From the NCBI GenBank assembly GCA_016647705.1, contig CM028327.1, forward strand, positions 9,557,726-9,621,725: DNA of 64,000 nucleotides. The letters run 5' to 3'. Below, piece after piece: positions 5,569 through 63,459 of this stretch. The notes under the pieces were generated by a model. That model had not been told where the DNA came from, searched no databases, and saw only the letters and a list, made by a program, of their open reading frames with translations. The DNA is from Eucommia ulmoides (taxonomy: Eukaryota; Streptophyta; Magnoliopsida; Garryales; Eucommiaceae). The number at the start of each line of letters is the position of its first letter. Positions within the stretch are counted from its first letter, which is position 1. A program made the position numbers and the translations under genes.

Positions 5569-6212
5569 TGTCTGACGCCATTTTGTTTTGGAATTGTAGA
5601 GGTAATGGTAACCCTAATACCCTTGCTAGATTTAAACGTATGGTGAAGTAGTCGAAAGTTTCCTTTGCCAAAATTATTGATCTATGGATTGATAACTCTA
5701 ACATGGGGAGAGTTAACAAGGCTATCAAGTTTCATAACGCAACTTCTAATTAAGGTGAATTGGGCAAAATTTGGTTTTTTGGAAAAATAATATGGATGTT
5801 CAAATTGTTCGCACACATTGCCAATTTATTGCTTGTAAGGTTTCTTGGTTAAATTTGGAGTTTTTGGTTGTGGCTGTCTGGCTGTCTATGCTAGTTGCTC
5901 GCAGAATTCTTTGGGAAGATCTTATCACTACGCCGATAATTTTTTTTTTTGGGGGGAGGAGGGGAGGAAGGGGGGATTTTAATGTTGTTTGTAGCATTTC
6001 AGAGAAGTTGGGTTGTTTAACCCCTTCTTGGAGTGCCATGCAAGAGTTTAATGTCTGTATTAACCTAGCCGGGCCGGTGGACCCTCCATTCACGAGGTCA
6101 ACTTTCACCTTTTGTAACAATCGTCAAGGGTTGTCCCGACAATATTCTCGATTGGATAGAATCTTGGTTTCGCCTACGATTTGTAATTTGTTCAATGACC
6201 GGGTTGAACAAC
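5569..6212 (+). pseudogene. LINE ORF2, endonuclease N-terminal part, broken
   Basis: This piece encodes the start of the LINE apurinic endonuclease. The opening reads ILFWNCRGNGNPNTLARFKR, the usual N-terminal motif with the conserved N. Farther on come GDFNVV (the catalytic GDFN) and SRLDRIL. Several stops and a homopolymer run near 5940-5960 break the frame. The inverted LTR dimer interrupts it directly after FNDRVEQL; the partner motif SDHCPLIL resumes at about 20930. The target-site duplication acaac of that insertion is at 6208-6212. Confidence 0.8.
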
Positions 6213-6508
6213 TGTAGACACGGCATTTTGACCGCCTCGCAAAAAATTATACTTTATTTTATAGTTACCTTTATTTTATTTTTCTATTTATTTTGTTTTG
6301 ATTGTACCATATTTATGCGGTTTAATACTGCTAAATTAAGTTTTATTAATCTCTTAAGTAAATTAAATATTAGTAATTGATTTTTATTTTTTTGGTTTTG
6401 TAGATTTTTCGAAGTGGAATAAAAACGCGTTAATTCGGAACAAAATGGACAAGAAACAGACGAGAACGAGAGAGGCCTGGACCGAACGGGGGTGGGGGGG
6501 TGCACAAA

Positions 6509-6650
6509 GGTCGCACGTGCGACCAAAAACTGGTCGCACGTGCGACCAGCTGGCCGCACGTGCGACCAGCAAGGGGGGGCAGAGACCTTTTGGGTGCACC
6601 AAGTTTTGGTGCACCCAAAAGGAGGTGGGTGCACCAAATTTCGGTGCACC
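6509..6650. promoter_or_regulatory. Cluster of CGCACGTGCG and GGTGCACC palindromes upstream of the LTR TATA box
   Basis: The 16-bp perfect palindrome ggtcgcacgtgcgacc lies at 6509-6524 and 6532-6547, with a near copy at 6552-6567. Four copies of ggtgcacc follow (about 6593, 6608, 6628, 6643). The CACGTG core is a plant G-box. The cluster is 60-220 bp upstream of the TATA box, where an enhancer would sit. LTR C keeps two CACGTG copies and the ggtgcacc copies (about 20496-20625). A regulatory role is inference. Confidence 0.6.
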
Positions 6651-6709
6651 AACCTCCTTTTTTTTTAACTTTTTCATACTTTGTGCGTTTTTTTTTTCGG
6701 CAGGTTTTC

Positions 6710-6744
6710 TGAGCCTTCATTCTTATAAATAGAATGAAGGCTCA
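6710..6744 (+). promoter_or_regulatory. LTR TATA box in the loop of a perfect inverted repeat
   Basis: Arms tgagccttcattct (6710-6723) and agaatgaaggctca (6731-6744) are perfectly complementary over 14 bp and enclose the 7-base loop tataaat. The TATA box (tataaata, 6724-6731) is therefore at the hairpin tip. LTR C has the same arrangement at 20400-20434 with one mismatch. Transcription would start at roughly 6755. Confidence 0.65.
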
Positions 6745-7084
6745 CAACATAGAGGGGGTGATTTTTTGGAGAAGAGGAATTTTTGAGGAGAATTTTTTTG
6801 AGAGGAATTTTTGTAAGGGAGAAGTGAAATCTAAAGAGAAATTTTGAAGAAAATAATATTATTTTTATTTTATTATAATTTGGAAGAAGAAAAATCTCCA
6901 AGAAGGTGGTAAATTTTCATCTGTTGTAAATCTTACTCTTATTTTTAAATAAGTTGTTATTATACTAATCTTTTTTTTTTTTGTAAATTAGATTTTTTTC
7001 TTCTTCCTTTATTATTTATTTATTTATTACTTTTTATTTTCTTTTTATTTTTATTTATTTTTTTTTATTTTTTTTGAGTAAGTA

Positions 7085-7930
7085 AAACGAGGCGGAAAAT
7101 TCCCAACCTTCAATTTGAACAGTTTAAATTTAGAAGGGAATTACTCCCCTCGATGCGTGTGTGCGGGTGTTTTATTTAATTTGTATTAAATATAATGTGC
7201 TAACAATACGAGGCGGAAAATTCCCAACCTTCGATTTGAAGGTTTAAATTTAGAAGGGAATTACTCCCCTCGATGCGTGTGTGCGGGTGTTTTATTTAAT
7301 TTGTATTAAATATAATGTGTTAACAATACGAGGTGAAAAATTCCCAACCTTCAATTTGAACGGTTTAAATTTAGAAGGGAATTACTCCCTCGATGCGTGT
7401 GTGCGGGTGTTTTATTTAATTTGTATTAAATATAATTTGCTAACGATACGAGGTGGAAAATTCCCAACCTTCCATTTGAACGGTTTAAATTTAGAAGAGA
7501 AATTATTCCCCTCAATGTGTGCGTGCGTGTGGGTGCGTGCGTTTTCTTTAACTCGTATTAAATATAATGTGCTAACAATACGAGGTGGAAAATTCCCAAC
7601 CTTCCATTTGAACGGTTTAAATTTAGAAGGGAATTACTCCCCTCGATGTGTGCGTGCGTGTGTGAGCGTGTGTTTCTTTAACTCGTATTAAATATAATAT
7701 GCTAACAATATGAGGTGGAAAATTCCCAACCTTCCATTTGAACGGTTTAAATTTAGAAGGAAATTATTCCCCTCAATGTGTAAGTGTGTGCGTGCGTGTG
7801 TTTCTTTAACTTGTGTTAAATATAATGTGTTAACAAGATGAGGTGGAAAATTCCTAGCCTTCCATCAGAACGGTCTAGGTTTAGAAGGGAGATCACTTCC
7901 TTCAATGTGTGTGTATGTGTATATGTGTAT
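7085..7930 (+). repeat. ~120-bp tandem repeat in LTR A
   Basis: About seven units contain attcccaaccttc, gaacggtttaaatttagaag, ctcccctcgatg and a GT-rich spacer (gcgtgtgtgcgggtg), at roughly 120-124 bp spacing. LTR C has about seven units (19210-20060, minus); LTR B has about four. Confidence 0.8.
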
Positions 7931-8344
7931 ATGAGGAGGATTTCAAAATAAAATAAAAACATTCGGATTTAAATTCTAATTGGACTTAATCGGATAAGGT
8001 ACCGTCTTTGGACGGGCGTCTTGGGGTGCTTGACACCTTCTCCGAGCGTAACTGACCCCCGAACTCTTTAAACGAATCTTTGGTCAGACCATGTTATTTT
8101 TGGAGTCAAATTTTACTTAAACTATGTTTTTAAATTATTTTTAAAAAAGAAAAATATGGTGACCTAGCACATCATTTAAACCCAATGCTAGGTGGCGACT
8201 CCTTTTTCTAAAACAGGCTTAAGTATATTTTAATGAGAAAATCGACGTTTTTAAAAACCCTTCTCATTTTACCAGCGCCAAGCATATATAATATATATAT
8301 CTATATTTTTTTTATTTTCTCTGAAAAATCGGGGCGCGTTCAGC

Positions 8345-8363
8345 TGGCGACTCCACTGGGGAC
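8345..8363 (+). other. Primer-binding site, internal copy 1
   Basis: tggcgactccactggggac begins two bases after LTR A. It resembles the primer site of Tat/Ogre-type elements, for which a tRNA-Arg primer has been described. The tRNA assignment is from family knowledge, not verified here. Confidence 0.7.
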
Positions 8364-8496
8364 CCACAGAGGGTCGAGCCCAATATGTCTGAATAAGTCC
8401 AACTAATCTAAAATCCGAATGTTAAATTTTATTTTATTTTTTCCCTCAATTCAGTAAATAAGTTGTGATTTTTTTTATATCATTTATTTTTTATTT

Positions 8497-8528
<32 letters not shown>

Positions 8529-8974
8529 TTTCTCTTTTCCTTATTTCCTCTCAGGCTCTTATATCGTTGTAAATCCTTTGACAAAAGCAAAATTGTCTTG
8601 TATCCATATTATCCCCTCAGGATTCTATGATACAAGACGAGAAAGAGATTTTTTTGTACTTGATGGATTTATGACGTCTTGGGAAGTCCTAAAAAAAAAA
8701 AAAAAAAACCAAACAAGTTCAAAGTTTTCAATATCGGTAGGGAACGAAAAAAAAAGATTTTTTATGTACCATCATTTGTTTTAATTGGTCGTTATCGAAA
8801 TTGAAATCTTCGAACTAGAATGGGCTTCGAGACCACCTAAGACCCACGTGAACTAATAAAAGGATTTTTGTTGTAGAAAGGGGCAAGACAAAGAAAATTG
8901 ATCCCAGAAAAACAAATCCAGTTCCCCCCTTTCGAAGTCCGATCTTTACACGCAGTCGAGCACAGACTCATTCC

Positions 8975-9590
8975 AGGATGACATCAGAAAGCAATCTCGA
9001 ATCTCCCCGAACTACCCGCAATCTTCATGTCCCCAAAACTACCCGAACCAGAACAACCAATATCACAACTACTCTCCTCAAAATCGCCAAAACCAAAATT
9101 ATCCTCAAAACCAACCCTATTCCCAAAGCCGCCCCCGCTATTACCAAAATATACCTCCCCTTTATCAAAACCACATTCCCCAATATTACCCTCAAGCCTA
9201 CCCAACACCCTCTTACCATACCTATCAACCACACCCGAACACCCCACCTCAAATTCCTAACTGCACTCCAAGGTCAGGAACCCAATACCACCAAGACCTT
9301 CTACCTCATGCTACTGGGAGAAATTTCCAGAACGACAACAGAGAGCTACAAGACCTTCCGGTCTCGATCACCGAGTTGTACCGAAATTGTTTGAAGCAAG
9401 GGATGCTGACACCCCTTCCATTCTACGAAGTTAAACCTGGGAGTAAAGCAGCTTCTTCAAATGCTTTCTGTGAATACCACTCAGGAACCAGAAGACATGC
9501 GACTGAGCAATGCTTTCAGCTGAAAGACAAAATTCAGGAGTTTATACGGACAGGAGCCATCACGTTTCCTAAAAAAAAAAAACTTGAGGC
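8975..9590 (+). pseudogene. gag C-terminal remnant, Tat/Ogre type, copy 1
   Basis: A Pro/Gln/Tyr/Asn-rich stretch precedes a conserved block with LPVSITELYRNCLKQGML and NAFCEYHSGTRRHATEQC followed by FQLKDKIQEFIRTGAI. This is the characteristic end of Tat/Ogre gag: a C-x2-H-x4-H-x4-C knuckle variant followed by an LK-KIQ-LI helix. No protease, RT or integrase follows. It is a fossil; the same region recurs inverted at 17535-18155. Confidence 0.7.
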
Positions 9591-9599
9591 CGGTACGCC

Positions 9600-11550
9600 A
9601 AACTGTCAGCAGAATCCGTTGCCTGAGTATGCACCTTCAAGGGGTGGTGAAGTCAATCTTTACCAAAATGTTGTTGGAGATGGGAGCGAGTCATGTGCCT
9701 AAGGCTCAATTTGAAAAATCTAAAGACTGCAAAACTGTTTTTTTGTTTGCTTTAAATTTGCGAGGTGTTTTGATAAAATTGGAAAATCTTTGCGTACTCA
9801 CCTTTCCATCCCGTTAGTCTTTTGGATGGAAAAGGATTTGCTCTGTAATGACTTTTAAAATTTCAATAATGCAATACTATTTATTCAAAACTGTGGTCTA
9901 ATGTTTGAATCTTACTATTTCAGGTGCCCAAAATTGCCTGCATATGTTGTACGTGATGTGACTGAGTGAGGATGTGAATGTGTGATTTCAATACAAAGTT
10001 AGACCACGATTCAATGGGACTATAATCAAAGGAAGATTATGTTTATCCAAACGATTGTGAGATCTGAAAAGGCCCGTAACCAAATTCGTCAGCGATTCTA
10101 GAAGTACCGGGGGGTTCAAAAGTCAAGATTGGTATCCATTGTCCTTACGATGCTTTGATATATTGTTGCAAGCTAATCAAACTATCTTTGGTGGTACTTT
10201 AGTGATTGATGAAATTGGGTGTAAATATCCCGATTTGCCTATTGTCTGAGTTACTCAATGGTAAAAAGGGAATACAATCATCTCAGGCCAATGATCCCAA
10301 TGAAAAAATTTTCAAATGTTACAAGAAGGTCTCAATTTCCAAAGAAAATCAAGTTCATTGATAAGCTCGGCTGTCCCTAAATCATTGTAAGTTCGATATA
10401 AAAAATAAAAAAAAAAGAAAAAAAAAAGGAAAAAAGAAGAAAATAATAGAAAAAAAAAAGAAAAAAGAAAAAAAAAAGAGGAAAAAATAAAAGAAATGGA
10501 AAAATGAAAAGTGGGATAACTGAACAAGAAGTATTGGTATAAATGTGGAAGAGATTTGAAGAGGAAAGAAAGATGATAGATAGATTTGTTCATATTTTCC
10601 GCCTCGGTCTAAATTAGCGGCAAATGATATTTTTTTGAATCAGAACTTGATGGATTTGAATGGAATTAGAATTTGAGAAAAGAAACATTGGTCGTGGTCT
10701 GAAAACGTATTAGAATCATATTCCTCTACATTCTTGACTCAAGATCTCACAGAAAATCATATCGGGTATTGAAGGTACTCATTTTAGTAATTTTCGACAT
10801 TTACCCATTTTTGGACTAAATCAGTTTTGCAGGACTTGAGAAAACACAGAGCATGCAGGAGTATTAGAACCCCAAGCATTGAAGCACCTACTAATTTGAA
10901 AAGACAAGAATCCAGTCGAGCAAGCCAAGGAGACCTCGATGAGGTATGTTGGGCCTTCCCCTGAGTCGAAGGGAACTAAAAAAAAAAAATTGTCGCATCA
11001 CCCTGAAGCATGTCGAACTCTCAGTTGAAAAGCGAGACTTCTAAATTCAAAAATGGAAAAATCTCCCGATACTGTCCCGTGACCCGAGAAAGTCAAGCGC
11101 CATCAAATGAGAGATTGCGACGGAAAAGGGGGGGACAGAATTGCGAGTCGTCAAGAGTGACAAGTTTTTCAAACTAAATTTTCGTGTTGCATGTGTTTTT
11201 TGTCCAATTACAGGGTTTTCAAAGGGCAGGGAAGCATGGATTTCTCTCTCACAAAGACTTCTTACCTTCCGGTTCAAATTAGAAACTTTTATTACTAAAA
11301 GTTCGAAAGCTCTAAATGAGCGTCCAGGTATGCGTTTTGCCTTGAAAAGGGCGAAAAGTGAACTACGCTAAACTTGATCCTCGGCATAATACTAAGGTAC
11401 GCAGGCAATCTATAAATGTTCGGTCATCTGAGAGTTCGGCTGGGGCACATTTATATCTTTGCTCTCTCATTCTGGCTCAGTCACAAGTTGGGGCATATTT
11501 TATACTCTTGAACTTTCTTTAAGCCCCTGGCCAAGAGGGCTGGGGCATGA
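9600..11550 (+). other. Non-coding internal region of dimer copy 1
   Basis: No polymerase domain is visible here. There is an A-rich purine tract at 10400-10510 and otherwise unremarkable sequence. Inverted counterpart: about 15590-17530. Confidence 0.7.
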
Positions 11551-12960
11551 ATAATTTTTATTACTCTAAGCGATCCTTTAAACGGACACGTGTTCGTCAT
11601 GAGTATTGTCATGAGTCATTTTTTTATTACTCTAAACAATCCTCTAAACGGACATATGTTCGTCATGAGTACCATCATGAATCATTTTATTATTCTAAAC
11701 GATCCTCTAAACGGACACATGTTCGTCATGAGTACCGTCATAAATTATTTTATTACTCTAAACGATTATCTTAACAGACGCTTGTTCGTTATGAGTATCA
11801 TCACGAGTTAAATTTTTTTATCACTCTAAACGATCCTCTAAACGGACATTTGTTTATTATGAACATCGTCATGAGTCATTTTTTTATTACTCTAAACAAT
11901 CCTCTAAACGGATATATGTTCGTCATGAGTACCATCATGAATCATTTTATTACTCTAAACGATCCTCTAAACGGACACATGTTCGTCATGAGTATCGTCA
12001 TAAATTATTTTATTATTCTAAACGATTGTCTTAACAGACGCTTGTTCGTCATGAGTATCATCACGAGTTAAATTTTTTTATCACTCTAAACGATCCTCTA
12101 AACGGACACATGTTCGTCATGAGTACCGTCATGAATTATTTTATTACCCTAAACGATCCTCTAAATGGATACGTGTTCATCATGAGTATCGTCAGGAGTC
12201 ATTTTTTTTCCACTCTAAACGATCCTCTAAACAGACACGCGTTTGTCATGAGTATCGTCATGAGTCATTTTTTATTATTCTAAACGATCCTCTAAACAGA
12301 CACTTGTTCGTCATGAGTATCGTCATGAGTCATCATTTTATTACTCTACACGATCCTCTAAACGGACACATGTTCGTCATGAGTACCGTCATGAATTATT
12401 TTATTACTCTAAACGATCCTCTAAATGGACACGTGTTCGTCATGAGTATCGTCAGGAGTCATTTTTTTATTACTCTAAACGATCCTCTAAACAGACACGC
12501 GTTTGTCATGAGTATCGTCATGAGTCATTTTTTATTATTCTAAACGATCCTCTAAACAGACACTTGTTCGTCATGAGTATCGTCGTAAGTCATCATTTTA
12601 TTACTCTAAACGATCCTCTAAACGGACACATGTTCGTCATGAGTACCGTCATGAATTATTTTATTACTCTAAACGATCCTCTAAACGGACACATGTTCGT
12701 CATGAGTACCGTCATGAATTATTTTATTACTCTAAAATAATCATCTTAACAGACACTGGTTCGTCATGAGTATCATCACGAGTTAATTTTTTATCACTCT
12801 AAATAATCTTCTAAACGGACATTTGTTTGTCATGAACATCGTCATGAATCATTCTTTTATTTCTCTAAACGGACACTTGTTCGTCGTGACTCTTCTTTTA
12901 TTACTCTAAACGTACACTTGTTTGTCATGAGTATCGTCATGAGTCATTTTACTTTATTTG
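11550..12960 (+). repeat. ~63-66-bp tandem array, copy 1
   Basis: About 22 units built on cgatcctctaaacggacac, tgttcgtcatgagtaccgtc and atgaattattttattactc. Unit length is often a multiple of three, which keeps frames open and yields repetitive, spurious peptides. It lies between the gag remnant and the polypurine tract, a usual position for tandem repeats in Tat/Ogre elements. Confidence 0.85.
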
Positions 12961-13063
12961 TTCTACTACCAAAAAATACACTAAAAAATAAAAAAAAAAT
13001 AAAAAATGGGACGATCAAAATGACGTGGTCTTTTATCTTTGCCAAGCAAGTGGAACTTGCATG

Positions 13064-13078
13064 ACAAAGAGGGGCAGC
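13064..13078 (+). other. Polypurine tract of internal copy 1
   Basis: caaagaggggcagc ends directly at the TG of LTR B, as expected for the plus-strand primer. Confidence 0.75.
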
Positions 13079-14051
13079 TGTAGACACGGCATTTTGACCG
13101 CCTCGTAAAAAATTATACTTTATTTAATTTGTATTAAATATAATGTGCTAACGATACGAGGTAGAAAATTCCCAACCTTCCATTTGAACGGTTTAACTTT
13201 AGAAGGGAAATTATTCCCCTCAATGTGTGCGTGCGTGTGGGTGCGTGCGTTTTCTTTAACTCGTATTAAATATAATGTGCTAACAATACGAGGTGAAAAA
13301 TTCCCAACCTTCCATTTGAACGGTTTAAATTTAGAAGGGAATTACTCCCCTCGATGTGTGCGTGCGTGTGTGAGCATGTGTTTCTTTAACTCGTATTAAA
13401 TATAATGTGCTAACAATATGAGGTGGAAAATTCTCAACCTTCTATTTGAACGGTTTAAATTTAGAAGGAAATTATTCCCCTCAATGTGTGAGTGTGTGCG
13501 TGCGTGTGTTTCTTTAACTTGTGTTAAATATAATGTGTTAACAAGATGAGGTGGAAAATTCCCAGCCTTCCATCAGAATGGTCTAGGTTTAGAAGGGAGA
13601 TCACTTCCCTCAATGTGTGTGTATGTGTATATGTATATATGAGGAGGATTCAAAATAAAATAAAAATATTCGGATTTAAATTCTAATTGGACTTAATCGG
13701 ATAAGGTACCGTCTTTGGACGGGCGTCTTGGGGTGCTTGACACATTCCCCGAGCGTAACTGACCCCCGAACTCTTTAAACGAATCTCTGGTCAGACCATG
13801 TTATTTTTGTAGTCAAATTTTACTTAAGCCATTTTTTTAAATTATTTTCAAAAAAGAAAAATATGGTGACCTAGCACATCATTTAAACCCAATGCTAGGT
13901 GGCGACTCCTTTTTCTAAAACAGGCTTAAGTATATTTTAATGAGAAAATCGACGTTTTTAAAAACCCTTCTCATTTTACCAGCGCCAAGCATATATAATA
14001 TATATATCTATATTTTTTTTTATTTTCTCTGAAAAATCGGGGCGCGTTCGC
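13079..14051 (+). repeat. LTR B, short central LTR of the inverted dimer (973 bp)
   Basis: Starts tgtagacacggc after the polypurine tract and ends gcgcgttc, immediately joined to the complement of the polypurine tract of the second internal copy. It is under half the length of LTRs A and C. It serves as the 3' LTR of copy 1 and occupies the place where copy 2 would have its own. Confidence 0.85.
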
Positions 14052-14066
14052 TGCCCCTCTTTGTCA
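14052..14066 (-). other. Polypurine tract of internal copy 2 (inverted)
   Basis: gctgcccctctttg is the reverse complement of the tract at 13064-13078. It begins at the exact base where a U3 terminus would normally adjoin. Confidence 0.75.
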
Positions 14067-14159
14067 TGCAAGTTCCACTTGCTTGGCAAAGATAAAAGAC
14101 CACGTCATTTTGATCGTCCCATTTTTTATTTTTTTTTAATTTTTAGTGTATTTTTTGGT

Positions 14160-15580
14160 AGTAGAACAAATAAAGTAAAATGACTCATGACGATACTCAT
14201 GACAAACAAGTGTACGTTTAGAGTAATAAAAGAAGAGTCACGACGAACAAGTGTCCGTTTAGAGAAATAAAAGAATGATTCATGACGATGTTCATGACAA
14301 ACAAATGTCCGTTTAGAAGATCATTTAGAGTGATAAAAAATTAACTCGTGATGATACTCATGACGAACCAGTGTTTGTTAAGATGATTATTTTAGAGTAA
14401 TAAAATAATTCATGACGGTACTCATGACGAACATGTGTCCGTTTAGAGGATCGTTTAGAGTAATAAAATAATTCATGACGGTACTCATGACGAACATGTG
14501 TCCGTTTAGAGGATCGTTTAGAGTAATAAAATGATGACTTACGACGATACTCATGACGAACAAGTGTCTGTTTAGAGGATCGTTTAGAATAATAAAAAAT
14601 GACTCATGATGATACTCATGACAAACGCGTGTCTGTTTAGAGGATCGTTTAGAGTAATAAAAAAATGACTCCTGACGATACTCATGACGAACACGTGTCC
14701 ATTTAGAGGATCGTTTAGAGTAATAAAATAATTCATGACGGTACTCATGACGAACATGTGTCCGTTTAGAGGATCATGTAGAGTAATAAAATGATGACTC
14801 ATGACGATACTCATGACGAACAAGTGTCTGTTTAAAGGATCGTTTAGAATAATAAAAAATGACTCATGACGATACTCATGACAAACGCGTGTCTGTTTAG
14901 AGGATCGTTTAGAGTGATAAAAAAATGACTCCTAACGATACTCATGACGAACACGTGTCCATTTGGAGGATCGTTTAGGGTAATAAAATAATTCATGACG
15001 GTACTCATGACGAACATGTGTCCGTTTAGAGGATTGTTTAGAGTGATAAATTTTTTTTAACTCGTGATGATACTCATGACGAACAAGCGTCTGTTAAGAT
15101 AATCGTTTAGAGTAATAAAATAATTTATGACGGTACTCATGACGAACATGTGTCCGTTTAGAGGATCGTTTAGAGTAATAAAATGATTCATGATGGTACT
15201 CATGACGAACATATGTCCGTTTAGAGGATTGTTTAGAGTAATAAAAAAAATGACTCATGACGATGTTCATGATAAACAAATGTCCGTTTAGAGGATCGTT
15301 TAGAGTGATAAAAAAATTTAACTCGTGATGATACTCATGACGAACAAGCGTCTGTTAAGATAATCGTTTAGAGTAATAAAATAATTTATGACGGTACTCA
15401 TGACGAACATGTGTCCGTTTAGAGGATCGTTTAGAGTAATAAAATGATTCATGATGGTACTCATGACGAACATATGTCCGTTTAGAGGATTGTTTAGAGT
15501 AATAAAAAAATGACTCATGACAATACTCATGACGAACACGTGTCCGTTTAAAGGATCGCTTAGAGTAATAAAAATTATTC
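14160..15580 (-). repeat. ~63-66-bp tandem array, copy 2 (inverted)
   Basis: Reverse-complement counterpart of 11550-12960 with similar unit number and order. Confidence 0.85.
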
Positions 15581-15589
15581 ATGCCCCAG

Positions 15590-16689
15590 CCCTCTTGGCC
15601 AGGGGCTTAAAGAAAGTTCAAGAGTATAAAATATGCCCCAACTTGTGACTGAGCCAGAATGAGAGAGCAAAGATATAAATGTGCCCCAGCCGAACTCTCA
15701 GATGACTGAACATTTATAGATTGCCTGCGTACCTTAGTATTATGCCGAGGATCAAGTTTAGCGTAGTTCACTTTTTGCCCTTTTCAAGGCAAAACGCATA
15801 CCTGGACGCTTATTTAGAGCTTTCGAACTTTTAATAATAAAAGTTTCTAATTTGAACCGGAAGGTAAGAAGTCTTTGTGAGAGAGAAATCCATGCTTTCC
15901 TGCCCTTTGAAAACCCTGTAATTGGACAAAAAACACATGCAACACGAAAATTTAGTTTGAAAAACTTGTCACTCTTGACGACTCGCAATTCTGTCCCCCC
16001 CTTTTCCGTCGCAATCTCTCATTTGATGGCGCTTGACTTTCTCGGGTCACGGAACAGTATCGGGAGATTTTTCCATTTTTGAATTTAGAAGTCTCGCTTT
16101 TCAACTGAGAGTTCGACATGCTTCAGGGTGATGCGACAATTTTTTTTTTTTAGTTCCCTTCGACTTAGGGGAAGGCCCAACATACCTCATCGAGGTCTCC
16201 TTGGCTTGCTCGACTGGATTCTTGTCTTTTCAAATTAGTAGGTGCTTCAATGCTTGGGGTTCTAATACTCCTGCATGCTCTGTGTTTTCTTAAGTCCTGC
16301 AAAACTGATTTAGTCCAAAAATGGGTAAATGTCGAAAATTACTAAAATGAGTACCTTCAATACCCGATATGATTTTCTGTGAGATCTTGAGTCAAGAATG
16401 TAGAGGAATATGATTCTAATACATTTTCAGACCACGACCAATGTTTCTTTTCTCAAATTCTAATTCCATTCAAATCCATCAAGTTCTGATTCCAAAAAAT
16501 ATCATTTGCCGCTAATTTGGACCGAGGCGAAAAATATGAACAAATCTATCTATCATCTTTCTTTCCTCTTCAAATCTCTTCCACATTTATACCAATACTT
16601 CTTGTTCGGTTATCCCACTTTTCGTTTTTCCATTTCTTTTATTTTTTCCTTTTTTTTTTTTCTTTTTTCTTTTTTTTCTTATTATTTTC

Positions 16690-16735
<46 letters not shown>

Positions 16736-17530
16736 TCGAACTTACAATGATTTAGGGACAGCCGAGCTTATCAATGAACTTGATTTTCTTTAGAAATTGA
16801 GACCTTCTTGCAACATTTGAAAGTTTCTTCATTGGGATCATTGGCCTGAGATGATTGTATTCCCTTTTTACCATTGAGTAACTCAGACAATAGGCAAATC
16901 GGGATATTTATTCCCAATTTCATCAATCACTAAAGTACCACCAAAGATAGTTTGATTAGCTTGCAACAATATATCAAAGCATCGTAAGGACAATTGATAC
17001 CAATCTTGACTTTTGAACCCCCCGGTACTTCTGGAATCGCTGACGAATTTGGTTACGGGTCTTTTCAGATCTCACCATCGTTGGATAAACATAATCTTCC
17101 TTTGATTATAGTCCCATTGAATCGTGGTCTAACTTTGTATTGAAATCACACATTCACATCCTCACTCAGTCACATCACGTACAACATATGCAGGCAATTT
17201 TGGGCACCTGAAATAGTAAGATTCAAACATTAGACCACAGTTTTGAATAAACAGTATTGCATTATTGAAATTTTAAAAGTCATTACAGAGCAAATCCTTT
17301 TCCATCCAAAAGACCAACGGGATGGAAAGGTGAGTACGCAAAGATTTTCCAATTTTATCAAAACACCTCGCAAATTTAAAGCAAACAAAAAATCAGTTTT
17401 ACAGTCTTTAGATTTTTTAAATTGAGCCTTAGGCACATGACTCGCTCCCATCTCCAACAACATTTTGGTAAAGATTGACTTCACCACCCCTTGAAGGTGC
17501 ATACTCAGGCAACGGATTCTGCTGACAGTT
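15590..17530 (-). other. Non-coding internal region of dimer copy 2
   Basis: Inverted counterpart of 9600-11550. A long T-run (about 16695-16732) is expanded relative to copy 1. No polymerase domain. Confidence 0.7.
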
Positions 17531-17534
17531 TGAC

Positions 17535-18155
17535 GTACCGGCCTCAGGTTTTTTTTTTAGGAAACGTGATGGCTCCTGTCCGTATAAACTCTTGAATTTT
17601 GTCTTTCAGCTGAAAGCATTGCTCAGTCGCATGTCCTCTGGTTCCTGAGTGGTATTCACAGAAAGCATTTGAAGAAGCTGCTTTACTCCCAGGTTTAACT
17701 TCGTAGAATGGAAGGGGTGTCAGCATCCCTTGCTTCAAACAATTCCGATACAACTCGGTGATCGAGACCGGAAGGTCTTGTAGCTCTCTGTTGTCGTTCT
17801 GAAAATTTCTCCCAGTAGCATGAGGTAGAAGGTCTTGGTGGTATTGGGTTCCTGACCTTGGAGTGCGGTTAGGAATTTGAGGTGGGGTGTTCGGGTGTGG
17901 TTGATAGGTATGGTAAGAGGGTGTTGGGTAGGCTTGAGGGTAATATTGGGGAATGTGGTTTTGATAAGGGGGAGGTACATTTTGGTAATAGCGGGGGCGG
18001 CTTTGGGAATAGGGTTGGTTTTGAGGATAATTTTGGTTTTGGCGATTTTGAGGAGGGTAGTTGTGATATTGGTTGTTCTGGTTCGGGTAGTTTTGGGGAC
18101 AGGAAGCTTGGGGGTAGTTCGGGGAAATTCGAGATTGCTTTCTGATGTCATCCTG
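17535..18155 (-). pseudogene. gag C-terminal remnant, Tat/Ogre type, copy 2
   Basis: Inverted counterpart of 8975-9590 with the same knuckle-like block (NAFCEYHSGTRGHATEQC) and the same absence of polymerase downstream. A few percent different from copy 1 by eye. Confidence 0.7.
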
Positions 18156-18593
18156 GAATGAGTCTGTGCTCGACTGCGTATAAAGATCGGACTTCGAAAG
18201 GGGGGAACTGGATTTGCTTTTCTGGGACCAATTTTCTTTGTCTTGCCCCTTTCTACAACAAAAATCCTTTTATTAGTTCACGTGGGTCTTAGGTGGTCTT
18301 GAAGCCCATTCTAGTTCGAAGATTTCAATTTCGATAACGACCAATTAAAACAAATGATGGTACATAAATTTTTTGTTTTTCGTTCCCTACCGATATTGAA
18401 AACTTTGAACTTGTTTGATTTTTTTTTTTTTTTAGGACTTCCCAAGACGTCATAAATCCATCAAGTACAAAAAAACCCCTTTCTCGTCTTGTATCATAGA
18501 ATCCTGAGGGGATAATATGGATACAAGACAATTTTGCTTTTGTCAAAGGATTTACAACGATATAAGAGCCTGAGAGGAAATAAGGAAAAGAGA

Positions 18594-18594
<1 letters not shown>

Positions 18595-18637
<43 letters not shown>
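18595..18637. repeat. (AT)n microsatellite in dimer copy 2
   Basis: An AT tract of about 43 bp. The matching place in copy 1 (about 8500-8530) has a short AT tract followed by a T-run, so the two arms have diverged here. Confidence 0.8.
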
Positions 18638-18643
<6 letters not shown>

Positions 18644-18775
18644 ATAAAAAATAAATGATATAAAAAAAAATCACAACTTATTTATTGAATTGAGGGAAAA
18701 AATAAAATAAAATTTAACATTCGGATTTTAGATTAGTTGGACTTATTCAGACATATTGGGCTCGACCCTCTGTGG

Positions 18776-18794
18776 GTCCCCAGCGGAGTCGCCA
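18776..18794 (-). other. Primer-binding site, internal copy 2 (inverted)
   Basis: The complement reads tggcgactccgctggggac, one base different from copy 1, and lies two bases from LTR C. Confidence 0.7.
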
Positions 18795-18796
18795 GC

Positions 18797-20911
18797 TGAA
18801 CGCGCCCCGATTTTTCAGAGAAAATAAAAAAAATATAGATATATATATTATATATGCTTGGCGTTGGTAAAATAAGAAGGGTTTTTAAAAACGTCGATTT
18901 TCTCATTAAAATATACTTAAGCCTGTTTTAGAAAAAGGAGTTGCCACCTAGCATTGGGTTTAAATGATGTGCTAGGTCACCATATTTTTCTTTTTTGAAA
19001 ATAATTTAAAAAAATGGCTTAAGTAAAATTTGACTCCAAAAATAACATGGTCTGACAAGAGATTCGTTTAAAGAGTTCGGGGGTCAGTTACGCTCGGAGA
19101 AGGTGTCAAGCACCCCAAGACGCCCGTCCAAAGACTGTACCTTATCCGATTAAGTCCAATTAGAATTTAAATCCGAATATTTTTATTTTATTTTGAAATC
19201 CTCCTCATATACACATATACACATACACACACATTGAGGGAAGTGATCTCCCTTCTAAACCTAGACCGTTCTGATGGAAGGCTGAGAATTTTCCACCCCA
19301 TCTTGTTAACACATTATATTTAACACAAGTTAAAGAAACACACGCACGCACACACTCACACATTGAGGGGAATAATTTCATTCTAAATTTAAACCGTTCA
19401 AATAGAAGGTTGGGAATTTTCCACCTCATATTGTTAGCACATTATATTTAATACAAGTTAAAGAAACACATGCTCACACACGCACGCACACATCGAGGGG
19501 AGTAATTCCCTTCTAAATTTAAACCGTTCAAATGGAAGGTTGGGAATTTTCCACCTCGTATTATTAGCACATTATATTTAATACGAGTTAAAGAAAATGC
19601 ACGCACCCACACGCACGCACACATTGAGGGGAATAATTTCCCTTCTAAATTTAAACCGTTCAAATGGAAGGTTGGGAATTTTTCACCTCGTATCGTTAGC
19701 ACATTATATTTAATACAAATTAAATAAAACACCCACACACACGCATCGAGGGGAGTAATTCCCTTCTAAATTTAAACCGTTCAAATTGAAGGTTGAGAAT
19801 TTTCCACCTCGTATTGTTAGCACATTATATTTAATACAAATTAAATAAAACACCCGCACACACGCATCGAGGGGAGTAATTCCCTTCTAAATTTAAACCG
19901 TTCAAATTGAAGGTTGGAAATTTTCTGCCTCGTATTGTTAGCACATTATATTTAATACAAATTAAATAAAACACCTGCACACACGCATCGAGGGGAGTAA
20001 TTCCCTTCTAAATTTAAACCGTTTAAATTAAAGGTTGAGAATTTTCCACCTCGTTTTACTTACTAAAAAAAAAATAAATAAAAATAAAAAGAAAATAAAA
20101 AGTAATAAATAAATAAATAATAAAGGAAGAAGAAAAAAATCTAATTTACAAAAAAAAAAAAGAAAAAAAAAAGATTAGTATAATAACAACTTATTTAAAA
20201 ATAAGAGTAAGATTTACAACAGATGAAAATTTACCACCTTCTTGGAGATTTTTCTTCTTCAAAATTACAATAAAATGAAAATAATATTATTTTCTTCAAA
20301 ATTTCTCTCCAGATTTCACTTCTCCCTTACAAAAATTCCTCTAAAAAAAATTCTCCCCAAAAATCCCTCTTCTCCAAAAAATCACCCCCCTCTGTGTTGT
20401 GAGCCTTCATTCTATTTATAGGAATGAAGGCTCAGAAAACCTGCCGGAAAAAAAAAAAACACGCACAAAGTATGAAAAAGTTAAAAAAAAAGAGGTGGGT
20501 GCACCGAAATTTGGTGCACCCACTTCCTTTTGGGTGCACCAAAACTTGGTGCACCCAAAAGGTCTCTGCCCCCCTTGCTGGCCGCACGTGCGGCCAGCTG
20601 GTCGCACGTGCGACCTTTGTGCACCCCCCCACCCCCGTTCGGCCCAGGCCTCTCTCGTTCTCGTCTGTTTCTTGTCCATTTTGTTCCGAATTAACGCGTT
20701 TTTATTCCACTTCGAAAAATCTACAAAACCAAAAAAATAAAAATCAATTACTAATATTTAATTTACTTAAGAGATTAATAAAACTTAATTTAGCAGTATT
20801 AAACCGCATAAATACGGTACAATCAAAACAAAATAAATAGAAAAATAAAATAAAGGTAACTATAAAATAAAGTATAATTTTTTGCGAGGCGGTCAAAATG
20901 CCGTGTCTACA
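18797..20911 (-). repeat. LTR C of the inverted dimer (2115 bp)
   Basis: Reverse complement of LTR A within a few percent. Its U3 terminus (ccgtgtctaca) forms the right outer end of the dimer, followed by TSD acaac. In a normal element the right outer end would be a U5 end. Confidence 0.85.
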
Positions 20912-20916
20912 ACAAC

Positions 20917-22525
20917 TGGAACGTATTAATTCGGACCACTGCCCGTTGATTCTCCACTCTTCCTATTTTTTCTATAATAGTCGGAAGTTTTTCGATTTCA
21001 ACTGATGTGGACGTTGCATGAGGGATTTCTTGACGTTGTTAAATCTACATGGAAGACTTCTTACCAAAACCCTTTGGTTCTTTTGAGTCTTAACATCAAA
21101 TCGACGAGGGTGGCTCTCAAAGTATGAAATGCTCAAACTTTTGAGAACGTCTTTGTTGATTTAAATTCATGGAAGGATAGGGTGAAAGCTTATGATTCTA
21201 TGCTTCAAATCAACTAGTCCCAAGGTGTATCGGACTTATTAAATCAAGCAATTACGGAATATAATAATCTTCTTAAGAAGGAGGAGGTCTATTGGAAACA
21301 AAAGTCTTGAGAGCATTGGCTAGCAGAGGGAGATAGCAATTCCAAATTCTTTCATACGTCCGTTAAAATGCGTAACTCTTCTCTATGTTTGTTTGTTATT
21401 CTCCATGAAGCTGGAAGTAGCTTGGTTGATCCCAATATGTTTCATGAAGCTGCTATTGAGTTTTTCAAAGATTTATATTCGTTTGCCCAGGTTTCTTACT
21501 TCTACATGGTCTTTGATTCCATCACTCACATTGTTATAAATATGGATAATGCTATGTTATTGGCTCCTTTCTCGGTGGAGGAAATCAAAGATGCACTTTG
21601 GTCCTTTCCCATTGACGGTGCTCCAGGTATGGATTCTCTCTCTTCAAGTTTTTTCCAATCTTCCTAGGATATCATGGGTAAAGATGTTTGGGAAGTCACT
21701 AATTATTTTCTTAAAGGAAATTCTCTTCCTACTGCTCTCTTAAGCACATTATTGGACTTTATTCCGAAGAAGTCTCAACCTTCATCTCTCAAAGATTTTC
21801 GCCCGATCAACTTATGTAATATTTGTTATAAAATCTTTTCTAAGGCGTTATCTACTAGACTGACGTCTCTTCTGCCCAAGTTGATTTCTGGTCAACAACA
21901 CAGTTTTGTTAAAGGCAAGTCTATCGCCGAAACTATCGGGTTAGCCCAAGAACTTGTCAAAGACTTGGGCAAGGATATTCGTGGTCATAATATTATGATT
22001 AAACTCGATATGGCTAAAGCATATGATTAGCTAGAGTGGAAATTTTTAATTGAGGTGCTTAAACGTTATGGTTTCAGCTCGGGATTTATTGTTACTGTTT
22101 CTAGTTGTTTTGACTCGACTTCTTTCTCCGTGGTGTTTCAAAGGGTTTATAAGGGTTGATTTCCTACTTCTAGAGGATTGCGTCAAGGCGACCCTATTTC
22201 GCCTTTATTGTTTATCTTAGCTCAAGAGGTGCTTAGTCGGAATATCTATCGGTCCATAATAGATGGTCGGGTTCAACCTTTTGTTACTAAAAGATGTTGT
22301 CCTCTGGTTTCTCATTTAATATTTGTAGACGATACCCTCATTTTTTGCAACGAGAGTTCTCATAGTATTAGAAACTTAATGAAGGTGCTTGAAAAGTATC
22401 AATTAGCTTCTGGCCAACTGGTGAGTGCTCCGAAAAGTAACTTCTATCTACATCATAACTGTCTAAATGCGCATCGCCTAGCTATTGGTCTTTCAACCGA
22501 CTTTAGCCAAGGTTTTTCAATCACA
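20917..22525 (+). pseudogene. LINE ORF2, endonuclease end and reverse transcriptase, broken
   Basis: The sequence resumes with the endonuclease motif SDHCPLIL. After a degraded linker the RT palm is clear: DFRPINLCNICYKIFSKAL, QHSFVKGKSI, MIKLDMAKAYD, RGLRQGDPISPLLFILAQEV and LIFVDDTLIF (F-x-D-D, with V for the usual A). Stops occur within it, for example in HWLAEGDSNS context upstream, after FFQSS, directly after KAYD, and after FQRVYKG. The thumb and the C-terminal region are missing; similarity ends near 22525 in an AT-rich stretch without a poly(A) tail. Confidence 0.85.
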
Positions 22526-22625
22526 TGTACAAATTTATTTATTTATTTTTTGTTCTTTTTGTTTTTTGATATTGTTGAGATGAAATTATTCAATGTGACA
22601 GTGATGCTACGTGGCAATGATGATG

Positions 22626-23822
22626 TGGTGAGAAAATCATGACAGACAGGTGATTGGTGACGTGGCAATTGATTGTCAAGGTGGTAGAGCATGTGTAAAT
22701 ATTAGACTTGGTGATCATGCCATCCCATCATGCTCACGTGGCATGACTGTCTTATTGAATTATTTCTTGTTGAGATGAGTGTTTTGTTGTTAATTGGGTG
22801 ACTATGCCATGTAATTATGTTGATGTGGCAGACTGTCTCACTGAATAATTTCTCATTGAGATGATTACTTTGTTGTTGGTTGGATGATTTTGCCACCATG
22901 TTATCATGCTGACATGGTAGTCTGTCTCATTATCGTTCAGATGAATATTTTGCTGTTAGCTATGTGACTATGCCACGTCATCATGTTGAAGTGGGAGACA
23001 TTCTCACAGAATAATTTCTCATTGGGATGAATATTTTTATGTTGATTGGGGGGTTATGCCATGTCATCATGCTGATGTGGCATGATTGTTGATTGAGTGA
23101 TTATGCAACGTCAATATGTTGATATGGCAATACCTATCTCATTGGCTCATATCTCGTTGAGATGAGTATTTTGTTGTTGATTGGGTGATTCTGCCACATT
23201 ATCATTGCTAATGTGGCATAGTTGTCACAGTTAATAATTTCTCATTTTGATGTGTACTCTACTGTCATGTCAGTAATATTTGATTGTAATAGGTCTCTTC
23301 GAATACTATAGACGTTCATTTATTTGAGAAATTTATAATATTATTTTATTTTATTTATTTATTTATTAAAGACATTTTACCTTTTTAATTCATTTGCAAA
23401 ATATTTTTTTAAAAATATAATTTTCTATTAGATAGGAATAATTAGTGTATATAAAAATATATTAAATAATTAATAAATAGGTTCCACATGTTTGGAGATT
23501 CCCAACAAAAAACCTCATTTCAATGATTTTTTGGCTTAATAATCCAATATTTTAGGAAAATATAAAAAGTAAAATCCACTATAAAACCTAGGAATCACTT
23601 ATGTTGTGTCAAGCAATGGGTTCCAACTAATTATTCTTTGCTAAATCTAAATTAAATATTTTTTTAATATTATAAATAATATTTATTTTTATGAAAATAA
23701 ATAAAAAGAAGATGCTTTATTTAATGAGGAAGCTATTGATAAATCCCCCCAAATAATTCTTTAATATTTAATTGGAGTAATATTTTAGATTAGATTCAGC
23801 AATAAATTAGAGTAATTAATTA
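22626..23822. repeat. Right copy of the ~1.2 kb direct repeat
   Basis: Matches 1-1220 in the same orientation, starting tggtgagaaaatcatgac. Includes its own ~86-bp minisatellite (22700-23275). Homology ends at attaattaa, after which ordinary flanking DNA begins. The true left edge may lie a little further left (22530-22625), where the partner is outside the window. Confidence 0.8.
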
Positions 23823-24950
23823 AGAGTTTTGAACAATTATCCTTTTATTTTTAGGGGCGTTTATTGAAGGATCCTCGTTTGGACCCAAAACTGTCAAATA
23901 ACCGAATAACCCATTTGGAATATATGGACAAATTTGTCCCTCTAAATATCAGTTGCCTTCCATATTTACGGTCCCAATAATTTTTACAAATATATTCTCC
24001 GAAACTTAAGGATAGTTATTGTAATCGATCAATTTAAAATATTTATTGTAAATCTCCCAATTAATCATTTTATAATTTTATTTTCATCAACAAATTATAC
24101 CGAAATAATCATTTGTTTTTTTAACCTTTAAAATGATATTCTGATCGTGCATTTTGGATTAAAAAAAAATCACGTTTATGTTGAATTCAACACGGTGTAT
24201 TTATTTTAATGGTTGAATCCAACTGTGTTGGATTTAACACATTATGTTAAATATAACATCATATCCTCCATTTGTCTTTCTATTTTTTTTTTAATTTTTT
24301 TTTTGTATCCAACAAAACATGACGATTTTACGTGTATTAAATTCAACGCAAATTTCAAAACCCAATAGTTAAACTTTACTAATAACTAACCATGTTAAAT
24401 TCCACACAAATTATTAAATTGAACACTGTGAATGATTAATTTCAAATTCATAAATAACTTAACGTGGTGAATACAATATAAATTATATATCTTTCATGCA
24501 GAAAATATGATTGAGATGTCATTTGGAAGATTTAAAGTATAGGATCATGGCTGTGTAATTTAATCATGTCAACAAAAAAAAAAACAGAATTATTTTATTG
24601 CGTGATTACTTGAAGAGTTTTTACTATAATTAATTATGGTAAATGTTATTTTTTTTAGAAATAAATATTTCAAGAATATTTTCACTATCTTTCTTTAAGA
24701 TAATTGTTTTATTTGAATTCAACTTAATAAAGAATAATCACATATCAATCCCAAAAATTAGTAGTGGTGGATGTTTTTGCCATGGAAAATCCAAAAAAAT
24801 TTAAAATAAAATTATTATGTTAAAAAAATCAAGTAAACAAGATTATTTGGTTCATTTGTAGTTAATAGATATTGATTAGTAATTTGTATCAAAAAATAAG
24901 TCCCTGCAATTATTTTTCCCTAAAGACAAATTCAATTTACAACATTAAAA
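23823..24950. other. Gene-free AT-rich stretch
   Basis: No coding frame, RNA gene or recognisable repeat. Near 24180-24460 there are several loose variants of gttgaattcaacac and gttggatttaacac, too irregular to call an array. Confidence 0.6.
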
Positions 24951-28596: not shown

Positions 28597-28914
28597 CTAC
28601 GTATCTCTCACTTCAAACTCGTTGCGATTCTTCACAACGATGTCATACATGTGCATGGATTTGAATCTGGAGAAATCTCTGGGGAGAGAGATTAGGTGTA
28701 CGGTGGATCTTTTGTGGTACTGTAGGAGATCCGGATCATCGTAGTACCTCTCCCATCCCAGGGACAGCAGCTTTCTCTCAAGTATTTCGTAGGATGTAAT
28801 GACTTCGCCGGTCGGAACATGGACCAGTACTTTCCGGCGGGTCTGGCACTCGGCTCCGGCCGGGTTCTCGACCAGCCGGACAACCCCGTTCTTGAAGACC
28901 CAAACGCCTGACAT
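28597..28914 (-). CDS. FPF1-like protein (flowering-promoting factor 1-like), 105 aa
   Basis: An intact single-exon host gene of the plant-specific FPF1/FLP family, small cytosolic/nuclear proteins that influence flowering time, gibberellin response and root or cell elongation in Arabidopsis and rice; their biochemical activity is not settled. The start [18 protein letters not shown] is the family signature, so the ATG at 28912-28914 is chosen; the two codons upstream (TTG AGA) are not used. Other hallmarks are [59 protein letters not shown] and the end [12 protein letters not shown]. Length is close to the usual 100-125 aa, and no stops or indels are seen. It resembles the FLP1-type paralogues ([11 protein letters not shown] without the Ser-rich insert of FPF1). 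A TATA box lies ~90 bp upstream and a CT-rich leader precedes the ATG. Transposons lie close on both sides. Confidence 0.92.
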
Positions 28915-28920
28915 TCTCAA

Positions 28921-29012
28921 AAACTTAGAGAGAGAGAGAGAGAGAGAGAGGGAGAAAGAGAGATGATTTGCTTGTTGGGAGAGAGAGGAGAGATGAGTTC
29001 TGTATATATACT
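28921..29012 (-). promoter_or_regulatory. FPF1-like core promoter and CT-rich 5' leader
   Basis: On the minus strand a TATA box (tatatata, about 29003-29010, in tatagtatatataca) is followed after ~30 bases by a likely start site. The leader is CT-rich with an uninterrupted (CT)n tract at about 28928-28952. CT-rich leaders are common in plant genes. Confidence 0.65.
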
Positions 29013-35540: not shown

Positions 35541-36304
35541 TGTTGGTGTCCCAAAATGGTCAACACTTCGAGTATGGTTCAGTCAAGTGATAGATGAGTC
35601 ATCTTGTTGAGGTGGAGTTGTTAAGTTAGAGTTGGAGATTTTTCAAGTCAACTGCAATCGTATTCCTGGGGGACCGACTAGCTGGAATACAAAATTCTGT
35701 CCATCAAGGAGTGGTACCTGCACAAGGCTAAGTTGGGATTTGTCCCGGTGAAATCCTTCCGACATGAGAGTAAAGCTCAGAGAAAAAAAATACAGAAACG
35801 CGTTAAGTGTGTAAATAACAATTGAGTGTTAGGCCTTGGAGATGATTAACTTCACCTAATCGAACCTAAACACGGTTAATTAAGCGAAATCATATATTTA
35901 GCCGATAATCCAGGACGTTTGGAAAATAATCAATGGGCTTGGGCTTGTGGGCCCATCTGAAAAAGTCCGCGGGCCTCTATTAGGCCTATGGAGGTGAGCT
36001 TATGGAGAAACTCGGAGATCCATGGAGTTTTGGAAGAGAAACAGACTGAAATAGTGTGCTAGTCGAGACAAGCGGCTAAGTCTCTAAAGTTGGTGTCTAG
36101 AGGCATAGCATAGAGAGTGGCATCTTCCCTACATGGCACATTGCTCCTTTCAGAATGCAAAGGAGATTTCAGGAAATGAGCCTTGGTTGGCGTATGCTCC
36201 TACGTGACACTTTGGATTCCTGAATACGTCTATGCCACGGTGATGGTGGACACGTGGTTGGGGGCCCTAGTGCTGACTCGATCATGCCAAAAATACCCTC
36301 ATCA
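35541..36304 (-). mobile_element. Solo LTR, Tat-like family (764 bp), minus
   Basis: Begins tgttggtgtc and ends cctcatca, flanked by perfect ccctt duplications (35536-35540 and 36305-36309). The complement aligns well with 45771-46564: cttggagatgattaa, taaacacggttaattaag, agccgataatccagg and gggcttgggcttgtgggcc have clear counterparts. No internal region. Confidence 0.85.
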
Positions 36305-45765: not shown

Positions 45766-45770
45766 GGATC

Positions 45771-49475: not shown

Positions 49476-49492
49476 AATACCCCCAAACTTGG
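49476..49492 (-). other. Athila polypurine tract
   Basis: The complement reads ccaagtttgggggtatt, directly adjoining the 3' LTR. Confidence 0.75.
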
Positions 49493-55550: not shown

Positions 55551-55559
55551 GTGACATTT

Positions 55560-56370: not shown

Positions 56371-56389
56371 CGAAGATGCTCTGGTAATT

Positions 56390-59133: not shown

Positions 59134-59139
59134 AAAATT

Positions 59140-63350: not shown

Positions 63351-63459
63351 GATCAGAGCTGTTTCTCGTGCTCCAAAGTCTCCAAGACACCTGTTTCAGC
63401 CAGGAATTGATATCTCTGACCGCCTCGCTTCCATCGCTACACAGGGCTAGGAGGGCAAC

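Follow-up and report, generated by a model that had tools for sequence, protein, structure and literature searches.

A tail-to-tail inverted dimer of an LTR retrotransposon in Eucommia ulmoides, probably inserted as a single dimeric cDNA

Introduction

Plant template-switching complexes, which have three LTRs and a target site duplication (TSD), have been explained by faulty reverse transcription ahead of a single integration (Sabot and Schulman 2007, PMC1950507). One orientation is given for each complex, and in the model two RNAs become linked via their R regions; as we read it, this yields same-direction dimers with the usual ends, and an inverted dimer is not mentioned in the text. The recombinant three-LTR complexes of Devos et al. 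(2002), as far as they are summarised in PMC1950507, lie on one strand, have outer LTRs that differ in origin and lack TSDs. According to the available part of PMC3625200, HERV-K124 likewise combines three LTRs with two internal regions, and its 5′ LTR is opposed in orientation by the other two, the internal and the 3′ LTR. Its second internal region measures 206 bp and its inverted LTRs 78 bp; LTR inversion plus template switching was invoked, with the mechanism left unresolved by the authors. In the accessible portion of PMC4751563, Ty circles are described in which LTR ends were closed by non-homologous end joining, and part of PMC5407846 deals only with neighbouring inverted elements that served for PCR.

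Here we describe an insert in a 64,000-nucleotide stretch of Eucommia ulmoides DNA, the whole of which is referred to as the window. It resembles the complexes of Sabot and Schulman in having two internal regions, three LTRs with a common central one, a 5-bp TSD and near-alike outer LTRs. However, its arms are inverted and its central LTR is internally deleted. A common central LTR is also found in the recombinant complexes as summarised, from which the insert differs by its TSD, the similar divergences of its LTRs and its inverted arms. HERV-K124, as partly described, is degraded and partly inverted, whereas in the present insert a single central LTR serves two almost complete arms. The Ty circles likewise have joined LTR ends but are, in the portion cited, circular rather than an integrated inverted dimer. 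The sequence-only reading had stated that no class of integrated inverted dimers was described. This survives for near-whole inverted dimers, none of which was found among titles and abstract openings of one open-access library searched with chosen words; it is too broad insofar as three-LTR complexes with TSDs (PMC1950507) and, from the part available, HERV-K124 (PMC3625200) have been published. The closest published relatives seem to be same-direction doubles, and the present form seems to be a rare by-product of copying.

Results

BLAST self-comparison of the window recovered an inverted pair (6213-13078 against 20911-14050, 6.9 kb, 96.6% identity), which bears out the pair of ~6.86-kb inverted arms previously reported from the sequence alone. 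By global alignment the two 6.86-kb arms are 97.8% identical over aligned sites, with 148 of 6822 sites different (114 transitions, 34 transversions), 20 gap events and a K2P distance of 0.022. Each arm consists of an LTR, a primer binding site (PBS), an internal region and a polypurine tract (PPT), and a single 971-bp LTR lies between them, giving three LTRs and two internal regions in all. The arms had been called head-to-head; it is their 3′ (PPT) ends that converge at the centre of the insert, and tail-to-tail is the correct term.

The outer LTR of arm 1 (6213-8342, forward strand) runs from the U3 terminus TGTAGACACGG to a U5 terminus ending in GCGCGTTCA and contains 6.6 tandem copies of a 120-bp repeat as well as a TATA-like box recognised by eye. 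It is followed after 2 nt (GC) by the PBS-like TGGCGACTCCACTGGGGA (8345-8362, forward), a 63-bp tandem array of 20.4 copies (11546-12871, forward) and the PPT with its seam (AAAGAGGGG CAGC, 13066-13078, forward), next to which stands the TG of the central LTR. On the reverse strand, arm 2 comprises an outer LTR (18797-20911), which closes the insert on the right with its U3 terminus, the PBS-like TGGCGACTCCGCTGGGGA (18777-18794), a 63-bp array of 20.3 copies (14256-15573) and a PPT (14050-14062). Its outer LTR also holds 6.6 copies of the 120-bp repeat, so that the copy numbers of both arrays agree between arms (6.6/6.6 and 20.4/20.3). U3 sequence thus forms both outer termini, with TGTAGACACGG starting at 6213 and CCGTGTCTACA ending at 20911, and the same five bases, ACAAC, flank the insert at 6208-6212 and 20912-20916. 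Both points agree with the sequence-only reading. The chance of such a 5-base flank match, given the composition of the window, is 0.0014.

A shared central LTR had also been proposed. There is indeed one LTR between the arms, but it is incomplete: its 971 bp compare with 2132 bp in the first outer LTR and 2117 bp in the second, the following GC being counted in each of these two. It lies in the orientation of arm 1 (13079-14049, forward) and corresponds to the 3′ LTR of that arm with an internal deletion of ~1.15 kb (1158 bp relative to the first outer LTR, 1143 bp relative to the second), located at a 7-bp microhomology, TTTATTT, between the start of U3 and the tandem array. Its left boundary is a normal PPT-TG junction. 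At its right seam the U5 end, GCGCGTTC, lacks the terminal A and stands directly against the PPT/U3 boundary of arm 2 (GTTC followed by GCTGCCCCTCTTT). The motif CAGCTG is present at the U5/PBS and PPT/U3 seams. However, it occurs seven times in the insert, where ~1.6 occurrences are expected in total, and only three of these are at seams, so it is not peculiar to them. A special hairpin at the seams was considered and rejected, as DNA folding of three short seam stretches was unremarkable (z -0.61, -1.49 and 0.10).

Several features are those of an LTR retrotransposon. Both outer LTRs have TG...CA ends (TGTAGACACGG...GCGCGTTCA), the central LTR lacking the last A; a PBS-like TGGCGACTCC[A/G]CTGGGGA, recognised by sequence, follows U5 by 2 nt in both arms; the PPT AAAGAGGGGCAGC precedes TG; and ACAAC on either side falls within the 4-6 bp of a TSD. 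The LTR-end pattern and the LTR/PBS pattern each gave 0 matches in viral contigs. The PBS pattern gave 27 in prokaryote genomes, which we take to be chance matches since the record titles are bacterial.

For coding content, 36 ORFs of at least 90 aa were listed over 6000-21100, five of which, four of them in the arms, were scanned against Pfam; a further 34 of at least 45 aa in 8350-11600 were read and in part scanned. Each arm carries a gag-like ORF, of 266 aa stop to stop in arm 1 (8902-9702, forward) and 241 aa stop to stop in arm 2 (17544-18269, reverse), neither with a Pfam match. The former includes a zinc-knuckle-like stretch, seen by eye, and has one database relative, P0001 (88% identity over 32% of the query), itself free of Pfam domains. 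These ORF listings and the Pfam scan of four arm ORFs revealed neither an integrase nor a reverse transcriptase in either arm. Protease, reverse transcriptase, RNase H and integrase are the mark of an autonomous element, and the four scanned arm ORFs returned no Pfam family. The element therefore seems to be a non-autonomous, plant-like LTR retrotransposon; as no pol was found in the arms, any placement in Ty3/gypsy, which is judged by RT/integrase order and RT phylogeny, would be conjectural, and the enzymes that would have moved it are only inferred.

The insert lies within what appears to be a LINE. On the forward strand the flanks contain, in order, an ORF1-like reading frame (1715-2257, DUF4283, 5.8e-21), an interrupted frame and two reverse-transcriptase ORF pieces (21668-22639). 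The left part of the interrupted frame has 151 codons (5759-6212) and the right part 29 codons followed by TGA (20917-21002). The reverse-transcriptase pieces (21668-22027, RVT_1 6.6e-12; 22160-22639, RVT_1 1.2e-10; positions obtained by adding 14704 to the numbering of the joined flanks) are in a frame other than the interrupted one. When the insert and one ACAAC are removed, one forward frame stays open for 180 aa across the junction, against 58 and 5 aa for the others. Judged from these features, the flanks are two parts of a single degraded LINE that would join in frame. The frame of this reconstructed empty site argues less strongly for it than its length suggests, since the right flank contributes only 29 of the 180 codons before the stop, the reverse-transcriptase pieces are in another frame and the joined piece has no database match. 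In the protein collection a 109-aa portion of the joined piece yielded one candidate and nothing that qualified as a relative at E 0.001; for the whole 180 aa, neither solved structures (E 10) nor Pfam (E 0.01) provided a match. We take the interrupted frame to be endonuclease-like, from its motif SDHCPL and its place between DUF4283 and the reverse transcriptase.

The three LTRs look equally old, with 9, 14 and 12 private substitutions over their shared stretch and 0 three-way sites. C>T or G>A accounts for 22 of the 35 private substitutions, as in the decay of methylated DNA after insertion. Between arms, 92 of 4724 internal sites differ against 56 of 2098 LTR sites (p 0.07, boundary one site apart). 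The internal regions thus diverge no more than the LTRs, and nothing suggests two different parents of greater age; an origin of the arms from two different RNAs was set aside on the same ground.

Discussion

The common TSD, two flanks of a single LINE that would join in frame, the alike LTR divergences and the LTR/PPT seam short of one base together point to an inverted, tail-to-tail cDNA dimer that was formed before integration and inserted once by its two U3 ends. We consider this origin probable, as an inference from one locus, and the earlier proposal of a single insertion of a pre-formed cDNA with two U3 ends is retained as the best reading. The U5 end of a normal linear cDNA (LTR-internal-LTR) would have become linked to another molecule, one bearing only a 5′ LTR, at that molecule's PPT end, and the product would be a dimer with two U3 ends. 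Such a one-LTR molecule could be left over if the plus strand went no further than the PPT/U3 nick and breakage of the one-LTR intermediate occurred at that point. Integrase, probably acting in trans, would then have paired both U3 ends in one concerted insertion with a 5-bp stagger. Alternatively, fold-back priming of the plus strand at CAGCTG could yield the same product from one molecule. The central LTR may have lost its ~1.15 kb at the 7-bp microhomology during synthesis, or later by deletion at the palindrome centre.

Among these routes to a dimeric cDNA, the joining of a full-length to a one-LTR cDNA is favoured and receives somewhat over half of the weight, fold-back priming is a close alternative with about a third, and strand transfer of one cDNA end into another is left with a small remainder. 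Fold-back priming, strand transfer and the joining of unprocessed ends all predict a clean CAGCTG join, whereas the observed seam is short of one A.

Routes in which the dimer arose after integration are less likely. A single target could have received, in a concerted manner, one U3 end from each of two separate cDNAs; host repair would then have joined the free inner ends of the gapped chromosome, and one 3′ LTR would have been lost as far as its PPT boundary. Identical TSDs and U3 sequence at both ends would be expected from such an event, CAGCTG does stand at the U5/PBS and PPT/U3 seams, and the loss of one base fits end joining. We nevertheless regard it as unlikely, as a whole LTR would have to be lost after integration exactly to the PPT boundary. 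Independent insertions of separate elements are somewhat less probable again. Plant genomes often contain nested or adjacent insertions, and a burst of activity could give three LTRs of one age. However, the same five bases would have to be reused, with a deletion ending at both a U5 terminus and a PPT/U3 boundary, and the LTR divergences are alike and both tandem arrays match in copy number between arms. Inverted duplications arise elsewhere through chromosomal fold-back template switching, and here one inserted element would have undergone it while being replicated or while a break was repaired. This explanation is very improbable: the switch must stop exactly at an LTR terminus and rejoin at the right-hand ACAAC, replacing the U5 end, yet the right end of the insert is an exact U3 terminus. 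That the structure is an artefact of assembly or library, for instance a read turned back on itself, can scarcely be credited, since such a read should give near-identical arms, while the present arms differ at 148 of 6822 sites with an excess of transitions (114:34), have a longest identical stretch (270) that is ordinary beside the mean of 253 after shuffling (p 0.31) and are followed by a distinct right flank that carries the LINE onward. LTR-LTR recombination in a normally inserted element was ranked lower, as it would not place an exact U3 terminus at the right end.

If insertion of a pre-formed dimer is right, integrase here brought together a pair of U3 ends instead of the customary U3 and U5, and the locus records an error of reverse transcription or end joining that fused two cDNAs tail to tail. 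It would have a simple signature that can be searched for in any plant genome, namely U3 at both ends, one TSD and a U5 joined to an inverted PPT. As a search string, the seam is the U5 end GCGCGTTC or GCGCGTTCA within 3 bases of GCTGCCCCTCTTTG. Insertions of this type are long inverted repeats. Moreover, the central LTR is without most of its U3, the TATA-like box included, so a transcript from an outer LTR might run into the opposite arm and form double-stranded RNA. In maize, as set out in part of PMC3440606, Mu killer is an inverted duplication of one portion of a transposable element, and the silencing of its family is ascribed, as a proposal, to a hairpin RNA and siRNAs; it resembles the present insert in being inverted, but by that partial account derives from a DNA transposon. 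Tentatively, some cDNAs of plant LTR retrotransposons may form inverted U3-U3 dimers with a fixed U5-PPT seam, accepted by integrase in vivo, and their insertions may constitute an unrecognised class of long, ready-made hairpin loci able to supply small RNAs for silencing the family they belong to.

The inner 2.4 kb of the arms is less divergent than the outer part (33/2403 against 115/4419, p 0.0007, the split being post hoc), which could reflect later exchange between the arms.

Two inverted arms around one internally deleted LTR

Self-comparison of the window recovered the long inverted pair expected from the sequence-only reading, 6213-13078 against 20911-14050. Each arm consists of a 2.1-kb LTR (LTR1, 6213-8342, at the outer end of arm 1, the left, plus-strand arm; LTR2, 18797-20911, at that of the minus-strand arm 2), two nucleotides (GC), a PBS-like stretch (TGGCGACTCC[A/G]CTGGGGA in both arms), about 4.7 kb of internal sequence and a polypurine tract (PPT) terminating in GGGGCAGC. 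Within the internal sequence lie a gag-like ORF and a tandem array with a 63-bp unit; another array, with a 120-bp unit, lies in the LTR. In an end-to-end alignment, 148 of 6822 sites distinguish the two arms (114 transitions), with 20 gap events, and the copy numbers of both arrays agree between them (6.6/6.6 for the 120-bp and 20.4/20.3 for the 63-bp array). No pol gene was found in the arms by a Pfam scan, in which four arm ORFs, drawn from 36 ORFs of at least 90 aa in 6000-21100, matched no family; the shorter ORFs of arm 1 were read and in part scanned. A search of the protein collection at E 0.001 found one relative for the gag-like ORF, with 88% identity across 32% of the ORF. We call the element putatively non-autonomous. 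Imperfect repeats of GGTCGCACGTGCGACC occupy 6509-6568 in the U3 of LTR1, where 23 bp are absent from arm 2.

The arms had been described as sharing one central LTR. A single LTR, oriented as arm 1, does lie between the two PPTs (13079-14049), but it is internally deleted, lacking 1158 bp relative to LTR1 and 1143 bp relative to LTR2. Its left boundary is a normal PPT-TG boundary; 47 bases of the U3 start are kept, with one substitution, before a direct jump to the 120-bp tandem array, and TTTATTT is found at both edges of the gap. Its U5 extends to GCGCGTTC and abuts arm 2's inverted PPT, GCTGCCCCTCTTTG. A clean join of the U5 end and the PPT/U3 boundary would read GTTCAGCTGCCCC; the observed fused seam is short of one A. 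CAGCTG is found at three junctions of LTR and internal sequence (8341, 13075 and 18793), the fourth, PPT/U3 of arm 2, being the fused one. Across the insert it occurs seven times (the three seams and four other places) against about 1.6 expected from composition. Because the PPT ends meet in the centre, the dimer is tail-to-tail and not head-to-head, as first proposed.

A probable single insertion into a LINE

The same ACAAC, the target-site duplication (TSD) reported from the sequence, lies outside both ends (6208-6212 and 20912-20916). When the insert (6213-20911) and one ACAAC were removed in silico, one forward frame ran uninterrupted through the junction for 180 aa (151 codons to the left and 29 to the right, then TGA), compared with 58 and 5 aa for the other two. 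The joined flanks carry a DUF4283 ORF (5.8e-21) upstream of the junction and, on the same strand downstream, two RVT_1 pieces (6.6e-12 and 1.2e-10). These pieces lie in a different frame from the joined one, and the target LINE is therefore itself degraded. The joined frame contains ...VEQLERINSDHCPLI, which we take to be an endonuclease motif of plant LINEs; database searches with this frame gave no match backing that name. Both flanks, we conclude, come from a single LINE that was hit once and visibly lost nothing; the main grounds are the TSD and the way the LINE parts are ordered, with the open frame weighing less. Direct repeats at 1-1220, beginning at the left window edge, and 22626-23823 (91% identical) bracket this LINE, and both contain an 86-bp tandem array.

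Divergence of the LTRs and arms

In the stretch common to the three LTRs, with gap columns excluded, private substitutions number 9 in the centre, 14 on the left and 12 on the right, with no three-way sites. The LTRs form a star in which no pair is clearly closer, and 22 of the 35 private substitutions are C>T or G>A. Between the arms, the LTR parts differ at 56/2098 sites and the internal parts at 92/4724 (p = 0.07, test boundary one site apart); the internal regions therefore hold no extra, older differences. A K2P of 0.022 between the arms corresponds to about 0.85 million years, assuming a generic plant rate of 1.3e-8 per site per year that may not fit this species.

Divergence is lower in the innermost 2.4 kb of each arm (near 10.7-13.08 kb, and the mirror stretch) than in the outer 4.4 kb (33/2403 vs 115/4419, p = 0.0007; transitions per G+C site, p = 0.007), the split being post hoc and set after the profile was seen. 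This could reflect arm-to-arm conversion or fewer mutable cytosines, and it speaks against a fully simple one-age picture.

Origin of the dimer

The right end of the insert is an exact U3 terminus, where a normal LTR element has its U5 end; the two ends have little in common beyond TG/CA. Events after integration could not easily yield such an exact terminus, so a two-U3 molecule was most likely present beforehand. The earlier proposal of a two-U3 cDNA, made before integration and inserted once, is backed by the structure with this right end, the TSD, the presence of one LINE on either side and the comparable ages. From these we infer the joining or priming steps and the use of two U3 ends by integrase.

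The fused seam points to a full-length cDNA joined by its U5 end to the end of a PPT. In the established retroviral scheme, a plus strand halting at its priming nick and a one-LTR intermediate opening there yield a cDNA that ends at the PPT. End joining of a complete and a PPT-ended cDNA would give the order seen here, LTR-internal-LTR-inverted internal-inverted LTR. Alternatively, by fold-back priming, the plus-strand 3′ end ...CAGC would anneal to the GCTG of the PPT/U3 boundary, either on its own strand or on a sister plus strand; extension back to the 5′ LTR, with the central LTR left as a loop, would let a single molecule produce this order. The missing base at the fused seam leans slightly towards end joining over fold-back priming. 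By either route, integrase would next have used two U3 ends.

Three-LTR complexes with TSDs are found in Triticeae, rice and maize and have been explained by a template switch from one RNA to another (Sabot and Schulman 2007, PMC1950507). That model, as we interpret it, gives same-direction dimers, whereas the arms here are inverted. The Cassandra arrays described in PMC7215508 are tandem. Among the titles and abstract openings listed for the chosen terms in one open-access library, none described an inverted dimer that was integrated, nearly whole and built around a shared LTR. We regard the dimer as a well-supported single case, a variant of known complex LTR insertions; its interest lies chiefly in the U3-U3 integration that it implies and in the precise signature it offers for genome searches.

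Other features of the window

A 137-aa minus-strand ORF (28597-29010), without a Pfam match, presumably resembles FPF1-like plant proteins. Direct repeats of about 1.45 kb (48030-49483 and 59139-60592, 89.7% identical) enclose minus-strand ORFs (54117-57104) with matches to aspartyl protease, RVT_1, RNase H and integrase; together they probably represent another LTR retrotransposon, of ordinary type, whose frames are broken. Outside it lie direct repeats at 45770-46307 and 63459-64000 (87% identical), of which a weaker inverted copy (69%) is found at 35830-36304.
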